The position numbers and the translations under genes are program-made. From positions 1 through 34,714 of the IMG/VR virus record IMGVR_UViG_3300032605_000081: a stretch of 34,714 bases of DNA. One strand, 5' to 3'. The notes beneath the pieces are model-generated. The model was not told the DNA's origin. It ran no database searches and saw only the letters and a list, made by a program, of their open reading frames with translations. Source of the DNA: a virus. Of this stretch, positions 5,731-14,541 are shown piece by piece; position 1 is the stretch's first letter; every line of letters starts with the position of its first letter.

Positions 5731-6284
5731 TATTTTTTCTCCTGTAATGTTTCTTTCATGCCTTCATAAAACGCTTGAAGCGATGCACGTTGTTCTACGT
5801 CAGCGATTTTGTACCATTTTGCAAATGTAGCTTGCAGGTCTGGCAACGTCTTTTTGGTATTCATTTCGTCCACCGCTTTGTCACCGTCAAACATCAGTTT
5901 TACAGGTGCAGACTTTGTTGCGGCGTTACCGTCATCATCTTCACTTGCGATACATAATGCGGATTGGATTGAATACCGTTTTGCATAAGAAAGTGCCGAG
6001 CCGTAACCTTGGGCATCTTGTTTGGTAGCGGGTACAAACAATTTCCCAAACGACATTTCTTGACCCGATTCATGAATCAGTACGGTTTCAACACATACAC
6101 CACCTTCTGCGTCGTGTGTTTTTTGTACAACAGCTAAACCGTTGCTAGCAAGGTGCGGTCTGACAGCGTCAATGACGGAAACTAGACTTGAGTACGACGA
6201 TTTAAAATGAGGATTTTTACTATCTTTGGCGGCGTGATTCATACTGCTTTGCGCCTTGACTAATGCTTTGGCTAGATCTTGCAT
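5730..6284 (-). CDS. erf: ERF-family single-strand annealing recombinase
   Basis: A 184-residue protein of the ERF family (named after P22 Erf). Visible features: an N-terminal helix LAKALVKAQSSM, KNPHFKSSYSSLVSVIDAVRPHLASNGLAVVQ, then KQDAQGYGSALSYAKRYSIQSALCIASEDDDGNAA, the most conserved block. The C-terminal domain is helical. ERF proteins anneal complementary strands and promote circularisation of terminally redundant phage DNA, which suits a headful-packaging phage. It is the first gene of the minus-strand recombination operon. The start is supported by AGGTGA placed as in the nuclease gene. Confidence 0.93.
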   Translation of the reverse strand: MQDLAKALVKAQSSMNHAAKDSKNPHFKSSYSSLVSVIDAVRPHLASNGLAVVQKTHDAEGGVCVETVLIHESGQEMSFGKLFVPATKQDAQGYGSALSYAKRYSIQSALCIASEDDDGNAATKSAPVKLMFDGDKAVDEMNTKKTLPDLQATFAKWYKIADVEQRASLQAFYEGMKETLQEKK

Positions 6285-6320
6285 ATATCACCTGTATTGG
6301 ATTGCTAGCTTGATTGCTAG

Positions 6321-6334
6321 TGAAGTTATCTTAA
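6321..6334. promoter_or_regulatory. Operator-like site at the recombination promoter
   Basis: TGAAG-TTAT-CTTAA differs from the perfect TTAAG-N4-CTTAA sites by one arm base. It lies over the -10 of the minus-strand promoter, as the other sites do. Confidence 0.45.
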
Positions 6335-6356
6335 CAGACAATTTAGGTTGTTGCAA
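6328..6356 (-). promoter_or_regulatory. Promoter of the recombination operon
   Basis: On the minus strand: -35 TTGCAA (6356-6351), 17-base spacer, -10 TAAGAT (6333-6328). The start is expected near 6321, leaving a leader of about 37 bases with AGGTGA before the ERF ATG. The -35 is its own reverse complement and also serves the plus-strand promoter. Confidence 0.75.
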
Positions 6357-6379
6357 GCAAACTTAACATTAAGTAAAAT
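6351..6379 (+). promoter_or_regulatory. Promoter of the Cro-like gene
   Basis: Plus strand: -35 TTGCAA (6351-6356), exactly 17 bases, -10 TAAAAT (6374-6379). Only six bases separate the -10 from the ATG at 6386, so the transcript should begin at or within a base of the start codon. Confidence 0.75.
6353..6366. promoter_or_regulatory. Operator-like site over the shared -35
   Basis: On the minus strand it reads TTAAG-TTTG-CTTGC, matching TTAAG-TTAG-CTTGC at 4525-4512, where it also covers a -35. A protein bound here would block both divergent promoters. Confidence 0.5.
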
Positions 6380-6385
6380 GAAGCT

Positions 6386-6610
6386 ATGAAACATAAAGAA
6401 ATCATAAACATACTGGGTGGTACGACGAAGGTGGCCAAGATGTGTGGAATTAGTCCCGCTGCCGTTTCGCAATGGCGTGTTGCTGGTGTGCCACAAGAAA
6501 AGCTAATCTTTTTAGCGGCGCAACTTGAAAAGCATAGCAAGGGCAAATACACACGCAAGTGTTTATTTCCCGCATCTTGGCATGAGATCTGGCCTGAATT
6601 GCAGCCCTGA
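6386..6610 (+). CDS. Cro/YdaS-like helix-turn-helix regulator
   Basis: A 74-residue protein with a helix-turn-helix at about residues 10-35: GGTTKVAKMCGISPAAVSQWR, split by the SPAAVSQW recognition helix, followed by VAGVPQEKLIFLAAQ. This fits the Cro/YdaS type of small phage repressors. It lies divergent to the recombination operon, the classical place for Cro. It probably binds the TTAAG-N4-CTTAA sites, which is inferred from position and not shown. No ribosome site precedes the ATG, and the promoter geometry predicts a leaderless mRNA, as for lambda cI from PRM. No CI-like partner is found in the genome. Confidence 0.8.
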   Translation: MKHKEIINILGGTTKVAKMCGISPAAVSQWRVAGVPQEKLIFLAAQLEKHSKGKYTRKCLFPASWHEIWPELQP

Positions 6611-6642
6611 GAAAAGCCAGGGAACGAGAAACCAAATCGCTC

Positions 6643-6687
6643 AAAAAGGATGGTGACTGTTAGGAAAAGACTAACTCCCCTTTTTTT
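6643..6687 (+). terminator. Possible terminator after the Cro-like gene
   Basis: AAAAAGG (6643-6649) pairs with CCTTTTT (6679-6685) around an inner GTTAG/CTAAC hairpin, ending in seven T. The stem is interrupted, so efficiency is uncertain. The A-tract on the other side could make it work in both directions. Confidence 0.45.
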
Positions 6688-6695
6688 GCTATAAT
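6687..6695 (+). promoter_or_regulatory. Extended -10 promoter (TGCTATAAT)
   Basis: A perfect TGN-TATAAT extended -10 element. No good -35 is present, as is usual for this class. Transcription would start near 6702, just before the structured RNA. Confidence 0.6.
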
Positions 6696-6701
6696 TAAAT
6701 T

Positions 6702-6796
6702 GTTGGCGTGAGAACCAATGAGAGCCGTTTAGTCTGTGTCTTGCCCCGTAAATAAGGGGTTCTCACCAAGATGCAGATTAAACGGTTTTTGCTTTT
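6702..6796 (+). ncRNA. Candidate small structured RNA with two interleaved helices
   Basis: Helix A: TTGG-CG-TGAGAACC (6703-6716) pairs with GGTTCTCA-CCAA (6758-6769), 12 pairs with a two-base bulge; a 9-bp perfect version is 6708-6716 with 6758-6766. Helix B: CCGTTTAGTCTG (6725-6736) pairs with CAGATTAAACGG (6774-6785), 12 pairs with one G-U, extendable by wobble pairs, and is followed by TTTTTGCTTTT. The order A5-B5-A3-B3 means the helices form a pseudoknot or exclude each other. A smaller CCCC/GGGG hairpin (6744-6747 with 6756-6759) competes at A3. With the promoter just upstream, this is a transcribed small RNA or an attenuator. No known RNA family was recognised. Confidence 0.55.
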
Positions 6797-6912
6797 CACG
6801 ACTTCCGTCAGGGAGCGTTATCAAATGGGGTTAAATCGCCCGCACCCAAGAAAGATTGGCCTTGACCACACCCGCAAGCGAGCCACGCAGACTTAAATGG
6901 GTACTGCACAAG

Positions 6913-7070
6913 ACATACGGAATTGGTGGTAAACAAGCGTATGTTCGATTGAACATTAACTCCGGTAGGATTGGTAGCTATTTGTGCATAATTCAATAAA
7001 GGTTATTACTCTGGTAAAGCTATGGATCAGGACTGAATAGCCAACGCTATCCACCCTTGTATAGGCTATT
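6913..7070 (+). other. Cluster of inverted repeats in the non-coding region
   Basis: Pairs seen: ACATACG (6913-6919) with CGTATGT (6938-6944); ATGTTC-GATT-GAACAT (6941-6956), which competes with the first; TAGCT (6975-6979) with AGCTA (7018-7022), enclosing AATAA-AGG-TTATT (6995-7007); AATAGCC (7036-7042) with GGCTATT (7064-7070), followed by AT-rich sequence. They may fold in RNA or mark an origin or protein sites. Confidence 0.35.
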
Positions 7071-7115: not shown

Positions 7116-7144
7116 TTGCACAGACTGTTAAGTTGGCTTAATAT
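7116..7144 (+). promoter_or_regulatory. Early promoter of the plus-strand operon
   Basis: -35 TTGCAC (7116-7121), 17-base spacer, -10 TAATAT (7139-7144). The start is expected at about 7151. The operator-like repeat at 7128-7141 overlaps the spacer and -10. This is the closest match to consensus in the window and should drive 7188 to 11930. Confidence 0.8.
7128..7141. promoter_or_regulatory. Operator-like site TTAAG-N4-CTTAA at the early promoter
   Basis: A perfect 5-bp inverted repeat, centre TTGG, placed over the -10 exactly as at 4490-4503. Confidence 0.6.
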
Positions 7145-7150
7145 CTAGTC

Positions 7151-7183
7151 ATGGCAATTACGCCATACAACAAATACAGGTGA
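7151..7183 (+). CDS. Possible 10-residue leader peptide
   Basis: ATG at the predicted +1 of the early promoter, reading MAITPYNKYR and then TGA. The stop lies inside the AGGTGA ribosome site of the next gene. ATGGC/GCCAT (7151-7166) can form a small hairpin over the start. The -10 to ATG distance equals that of the Cro-like gene. This may be chance; expression is unproven. Confidence 0.25.
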   Translation: MAITPYNKYR

Positions 7184-14062: not shown

Positions 14063-14260
14063 ATGGCTGAAGCAGATTTTACATCTTGTTTTAACTGTAA
14101 ATACTTCCTAGGGAATGATTTAGGAAGTTGTAGGCGTTTTCCAACGTATCAAAATCGTCACGCTAATGAATGGTGCGGCGAATGGGCAATGAAGATCATT
14201 CCTTTAATGGATGCGCCACAAATAGAAGTAAAGCGTGGCAGACCAAGGGTGGCAAAATGA
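14063..14260 (+). CDS. Four-cysteine zinc-ribbon-like protein with AT-hook tail
   Basis: A 65-residue protein. Cysteines occur as CFNC, GSCRRFP and EWCGEW, a spacing common in small phage zinc-binding proteins. The tail KRGRPRVAK matches the AT-hook core (RGRP), suggesting minor-groove binding. RBS AGAGG precedes the ATG. The stop overlaps the co-chaperonin start (ATGA). Confidence 0.65.
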   Translation: MAEADFTSCFNCKYFLGNDLGSCRRFPTYQNRHANEWCGEWAMKIIPLMDAPQIEVKRGRPRVAK

Positions 14261-14541
14261 AGCTAAGACCTTTGAAAGATAGAATCGTTGTCAAACCCAT
14301 ATCACGCATTAAATCGTCCATTATTGACGTGGTAATGTCTGAAAAAGACAACATGGGTACTATTGTTGCTGTAGGCGATCAAGCCAAAAACCATCTGAAC
14401 ATAGGCGAATTTGTACGCTTTGGTACGATGGGTAATGATGAATATTTAAATTATCAAGAATACTACGAAGATGGGGAGCGATACCTTATCTGTAGTTGGA
14501 AGGATATTTGCTTTATATCAGAGGAAAATCATGCCGCTTAA
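14257..14541 (+). CDS. GroES-like co-chaperonin
   Basis: A 94-residue protein starting MKLRPLKDRIVVKPI, the hallmark of GroES/Cpn10. A hydrophobic mobile-loop-like stretch follows (SSIIDVVMSEKDNMG), then GTIVAVGDQ, the LNIGEFVRFG strand and a final YLICSWKDICFI that matches the 'DI' ending of the family. Phage co-chaperonins (T4 Gp31 type) replace GroES on host GroEL to fold the coat protein. Just upstream of the packaging and head genes, that role is plausible here. The start at 14257 is fixed by the ATGA overlap and the family start; 14170 would be a wrong extension. Confidence 0.85.
   Translation: MKLRPLKDRIVVKPISRIKSSIIDVVMSEKDNMGTIVAVGDQAKNHLNIGEFVRFGTMGNDEYLNYQEYYEDGERYLICSWKDICFISEENHAA

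Follow-up and report, generated by a model that had tools for sequence, protein, structure and literature searches.

The interval downstream of the Cro-like gene of a P22-like phage holds a putative RNA, RNA1, that represents an unrecorded RNA family. It is predicted to be a terminator-ended phage leader or small RNA with a kissing pseudoknot, in which the loop of a 5′ hairpin (H1) pairs through helix A with a segment in the loop of the long terminator hairpin (helix B). This plan of H1, A, B and a U-run is kept in 57 distinct relatives, P22-like phages that carry it downstream of Cro-like genes, and the structure, including its interleaved helices, is near certain. The window, which is the whole stretch of DNA analysed, is a virus record of 34.7 kb; it encodes P22-like portal, coat and terminase proteins as well as ERF, SSB and a Cro-like regulator.

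Fold of RNA1 in the window

The elements of RNA1 and its immediate neighbours are placed on the window as follows.

6386-6610, + strand: Cro-like gene (P22_Cro / YdaS), from Pfam and PHROGs
6687-6695, + strand: putative extended -10 promoter element TGCTATAAT, from sequence (TG at 6687-6688, TATAAT at 6690-6695)
6702-6719, + strand: H1, 5′ hairpin GUUGG/CCAAU (strands 6702-6706 and 6715-6719) with 8-nt loop CGUGAGAA (6707-6714), from the MFE fold, with covariation in 3/6 pairs
6708-6716, + strand: A5, kissing strand GTGAGAACC, with 7 nt within the H1 loop, complementary to A3 in 57/57 relatives
6725-6743, + strand: B5, 5′ strand of the 19-bp helix B, from fold and covariation
6744-6759, + strand: C, inner hairpin CCCC-GTAAATAA-GGGG (6744-6747 with 6756-6759), from the fold; relatives have one or two hairpins here
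6758-6766, + strand: A3, GGTTCTCAC, directly 5′ of B3, from complementarity and covariation
6767-6785, + strand: B3, 3′ strand of helix B, from fold and covariation
6786-6790, + strand: TTTTT, U-run of the terminator-like end, from sequence; a T-run follows B3 in members too
6805-7060, + strand: RNA2 type 1, structured non-coding RNA directly downstream of RNA1, from an alignment of 17 sequences

The MFE fold of 6702-6793 consists of H1, B and C (-42.9 kcal/mol, z -7.4), and none of 200 shuffled sequences was as stable (fold z-score -7.3 to -7.4). An earlier sequence-only reading, which had judged such a structure unlikely by chance, had described an extended -10 and a terminal T-run, both of which are present, around two helices of 12 pairs each, without H1 and hairpin C. 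The core of helix A stands, with nine of nine positions matched (6708-6716/6758-6766), but the outer pairs claimed for it at 6767-6769 belong to B; helix B is also real, but 12 pairs was too short for what is a helix of 19 bp (6725-6743/6767-6785). The MFE fold leaves A5 and A3 in loops, except for two bases at each edge, and in place of two 12-pair helices the arrangement is a pseudoknot formed as a kissing loop.

Pseudoknot formation and mutual exclusion of the two helices had both been considered from the sequence. Because no base belongs to both A and B, and the two helices are conserved jointly, the RNA is read as a pseudoknot in which the H1 loop kisses a loop segment, not as a choice between folds. 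A strand-exchange attenuator or riboswitch expression platform was rejected on the same grounds, the A core and B having no nucleotide in common, and no alternative antiterminator fold of RNA1 was found.

Rfam 15 gave no match in the window at the gathering threshold, and at relaxed settings the best sub-threshold matches within 6687-6796 were at chance level (E 0.17 and 0.74), so the earlier impression that no known RNA family applies was borne out. A literature search found no description of an RNA like RNA1. A repeat finder returned no repeats in the RNA1 region, and no tRNA or tmRNA was found.

Covariation and the geometry of the kissing loop

Approximately 150 viral loci were gathered via their ERF and Cro-like proteins, and relatives were picked by a long stem (B) with a T-run downstream of the Cro-like gene. 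The search yielded 58 distinct candidates, of which one was false (L184) and 57 are real, including a divergent member (L155). Support from A and H1 is not circular, because neither was a criterion for collecting sequences; the T-run after B3 in relatives was one, along with B, and its recurrence is therefore circular support.

Among 37 aligned class I sequences (the alignment labelled A3), standard pairs fill 93.8% of pair cells, and both partners change in 26/35 pairs (A 6/7, B 17/22, H1 3/6). Covariation is thus found in H1, A and B, the three elements that define the family, and the compensatory changes in both helices by which the sequence-only reading had proposed to check its model are there. 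The covariation score is 0.567, compared with 0.257 for shuffled alignments and at most 0.143 when partners are slid, and 0/500 shuffles reach the observed score. Since kinship inflates shuffle tests, the weight is carried by the variety of pair types and by the slide control, in which the paired fraction falls to 36-45%. The 14 class II sequences show both-side changes in 17/34 pairs.

The kissing strand A5 occurs as 25 different 7-mers among the 37 aligned members, and it is complementary to a segment of the B loop in all 57 relatives (through the second-listed match in the case of L081, L155 and L185). Pairwise comparisons show both sides of A pairs differing in 41.7% of cases and one side in 3.4%; the corresponding values are 22.2% and 13.3% for B and 18.8% and 28.0% for H1. 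Even between near-identical RNAs (L143/L144, L066/L186, L073/L081), A pairs have changed in step on both strands. Coupled replacement of this kind favours a reading in which the A loops pair between RNA1 molecules, either a terminated with a nascent RNA or in homo-oligomers, and so provide negative feedback or self/non-self recognition of co-infecting phages. The closest parallels are P4 CI RNA and ColE1 RNAI, short phage and plasmid RNAs whose loops pair with nascent transcripts and set specificity groups; RNA1 resembles them in loop specificity but carries its complementarity within the same RNA. In homo-oligomeric RNAs such as phi29 pRNA and the GOLLD/ROOL-like RNAs kissing is intermolecular, within a multimer; RNA1 has complementary loops, which may pair within or between molecules.

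Geometry bears on the same question. In a crude rigid-helix model the in-molecule kiss appears strained in members with short linkers, and in the window with every pair closed, and pairing of A between two RNA1 molecules is for this reason conceivable. The model nevertheless permits the in-molecule kiss where linkers reach at least 7 nt, or in the window with one frayed pair. Covariation within one RNA fits kissing inside or between molecules equally well, and sequence does not separate the two. Kissing loops also tolerate G-U pairs poorly, which would be enough alone to lower the number of single changes, and a role in lysogenic immunity is improbable given that two complete relatives have no annotated integrase or repressor. 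Self-specific pairing in trans is regarded as unlikely. In a more elaborate and slightly less probable version, RNA1 would be a hypervariable RNA for self-recognition. Its kissing loops would bind, in trans, RNA1 that is still being transcribed from a phage of the same type, so that readthrough into replication functions ceases as copies build up, and lytic phages would exchange loop alleles to evade inhibition by related phages infecting the same cell.

Boundaries, classes and genomic setting

Most relatives have a sigma-70-like promoter, a -35/-10 pair 16-18 nt apart that as a rule lies 2-9 nt upstream of H1, and the promoter score upstream of H1 averages 8.8, compared with 3.2 for shuffled sequence (a few hairpins being mis-parsed). 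H1 in the window starts at about the predicted +1; the promoter there has a poor -35 and is unlisted by a generic promoter scan. At the other end RNA1 has the structure of an intrinsic (Rho-independent) terminator, namely the stable stem B with a U-run directly 3′. The two architectures of RNA1 swap for each other as exact cassettes among nearly identical phages. For example, a class I and a class II locus (L195 and L201) differ by an exact exchange that begins right behind the -10 box and reaches the U-run, between flanks that are 96% identical upstream and 97% downstream. The window compared with L124 is 96% identical upstream, 69% in RNA1 and 90% downstream. From the cassette edges and the promoter before H1 we infer that the unit runs from promoter to terminator, with transcription starting at +1 and stopping at the terminator.

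The position after cro, the long stem and the T-run would also suit an ordinary strong terminator that insulates cro from the genes downstream, with a kissing loop that merely speeds folding. A dedicated promoter before H1, the exchange of cassettes and the second kissing pair of class II all exceed what such a terminator would need, and this explanation is very improbable.

The two classes differ in the placement of A3, which abuts B3 in class I (n=42, usually 0-2 nt between) and lies between two hairpins in class II (n=14); L155 has features of both. Most class II members have a second kissing pair, between the linker 5′ of B and the loop of hairpin C, such as UGGACA/UGUCCA (L085), GCAAUAA/UUAUUGC (L188) and CCAACA/UGUUGG (L132). 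What follows RNA1 differs as well. In 13 of 14 class II loci a Shine-Dalgarno sequence adjoins the U-run and an ATG lies 16-20 nt after it; in MW202520 the gene after RNA1 is a DUF1376, primosomal/O-like gene, so that the elements are arranged as cro, RNA1, O-like, P. In nearly all class I loci RNA2 follows within about 10-25 nt, with no evident room for a promoter. Three loci (L189, L190, L197) are without RNA1 and have RNA2 directly after cro, and RNA1 is therefore seen as an added stop in an otherwise continuous unit. The early genes of the window have their own promoter-like sequence, TTGCAC-17-TAATAT near 7117-7145, after RNA2, so that readthrough may be dispensable for class I genes.

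RNA2 is approximately 250-350 nt long and occurs in at least three interchangeable types across related loci (alignments A5 and A6). Type 1 has compensatory changes in 23/42 predicted pairs (17 sequences) and no Rfam match in the window; type 2 contains RF02932 (Betaproteobacteria-1), which thus occupies the same loci as a neighbour of RNA1 and is not RNA1 itself; type 3 (L076, L086, L061) had no Rfam match in the loci scanned. The Betaproteobacteria-1 RNA in sister loci hints at betaproteobacterial hosts. A sister group without RNA1 (L160-L182) has, in L160, L180 and L182, a different short RNA, GGACAGGC...GCC-AGUCC, before a DUF1376-like replication-type gene, with an apparent covarying pseudoknot, identified by eye, of UUAGUCA/UGACUA and UUAUCAC/GUGAUAA.

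Further elements were noted in the interval. Between cro and RNA1, four loci (L026, L027, L029, L030) have an additional unit that resembles a small RNA, termed RNA0, with a TATAAT-like box of its own and a CCC...GGG hairpin ahead of a T-rich run. Between cro and the promoter (6611-6690), GTTAG-GAAAAGA-CTAAC changes to GCTAG-GAAAAGA-CTAGC in relatives, which is compensatory and suggests that the cro transcript ends with a further small hairpin. An inverted repeat, TTAAG....CTTAA, occurs with promoter-like sequence at 7117-7180 (early right operon) and at about 6284-6380 near the start of ERF, recurs in many relatives and is likely a Cro operator.

RNA1 is carried by dozens of P22-like water phages, with the Cro-like regulator on one side of it and the replication genes or RNA2 on the other. 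These phages are probably lytic, because neither an integrase nor a repressor is annotated in the two complete relatives, MW202674 and MW202520. A GroES-like co-chaperonin gene (14170-14541, phrog_3188) is annotated in both and present in the window. A 289-aa protein at 10170-11039 matches beta-glucosyl-HMC-alpha-glucosyltransferase (phrog_842), and the phage DNA might be modified. Model R1, built on class I only and missing or barely scoring class II members, finds one copy on the + strand in the window and in matched relatives, with weak opposite-strand matches at the same site; the window, itself in the training set, scores 88.7 bits (E 5e-18). Zero bacterial carriers were found with this model in 369 sampled genomes of one class, a weak negative that had no positive control, and an ERF scan of genome contigs returned distant homologues only. 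Moraxella, Thalassomonas and Vibrio phages gave matches to the class II region as well, but these lie outside RNA1, where the query covers the Cro-like or replication gene, and were set aside.

Proposed role between cro and replication

The sequence-only reading had suggested a regulatory RNA or attenuator beside the Cro-like gene. A structured RNA with covarying helices and a terminator-like end is present and its position makes downstream regulation plausible; switching by strand exchange is the part that fails. The function of RNA1 is drawn from position, at about even odds, and the preferred account as a whole, a leader or attenuator that gates passage between cro and the replication genes or RNA2, is given a probability of roughly 0.5. 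RNA1 would be made by an autonomous unit as an RNA of about 90 nt (about 90-155 nt in relatives) that begins with the 5′ hairpin and ends with the long terminator hairpin, the H1 loop kissing a segment of the terminator loop to form a compact pseudoknot. It lies in the cro-to-replication-gene interval, the position of tR1/nutR in lambda. Most transcripts would end at B as a stable small RNA, while regulation would let a share of them continue into the DUF1376/O-like replication gene (class II) or RNA2 (class I). The kissing interaction may set termination or stability, and the short product may act in trans.

A gate is proposed because a replication gene or RNA2 follows closely, in class I lacking evident room for a promoter; the different pseudoknotted RNA noted by eye ahead of a similar replication gene in sister phages speaks for it too. 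Counting against it, RNA1 may be the only product, if leaky termination suffices for the parts downstream, and promoters may possibly lie unseen inside RNA1. A rival explanation, which is conceivable if rather doubtful, makes RNA1 a stand-alone small RNA acting in trans on another RNA or on a host or phage protein, its terminator being a mere 3′ end and its position incidental. The unit has its own promoter, a 5′ end in a hairpin, a 3′ terminator, boundaries kept by the cassettes, one copy in the window and no ORF, and allele exchange between near-identical phages would fit an arms race with host factors or defences. Such an RNA would not account for the start of RNA2 or a replication gene nearly always lying close behind, however, and no target was found, the A5 9-mer GTGAGAACC having 7 matches elsewhere in the genome where 4.7 are expected, no excess.

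The gate reading has a precedent in the Gifsy-1 prophage. There the small RNA IsrK (PMC4825925) is transcribed from a promoter of its own, and since part of the transcription passes its terminator, both a short RNA and a longer transcript reaching downstream are made; anrP is the gene that follows, and the effector under regulation is the antiterminator gene antQ. The genome layout of RNA1 is compatible with a dual-function leader and small RNA of this kind, but readthrough is proven for IsrK and only predicted for RNA1, and the abstract of that paper describes no plan of kissing between an H1 loop and a terminator loop. RNA1 is also similar to the put RNAs of HK022 as a phage RNA in early-transcript position; put is about 70 nt with two stem-loops, exists as putL and putR, acts on the very polymerase that transcribed it, and its structure affects transcription termination (PMC9378689). 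A put-type antiterminator was nevertheless rejected: RNA1 is present once, ends in a terminator and has a different architecture, whereas put occurs in two copies, one per early operon.

RNA1 thus adds an unrecorded phage RNA family with a kissing pseudoknot and unusually clear covariation. It comes in two or more interchangeable architectures and sits at the point where lambda-like phages regulate entry into replication. The interval between cro and the replication genes emerges as a hot spot of phage structured RNA, since RNA2 is likewise conserved and mostly unrecorded. The family makes testable both the control of the passage from cro to replication in P22-like phages that have no repressor or integrase annotated and the fast turnover of loop alleles.
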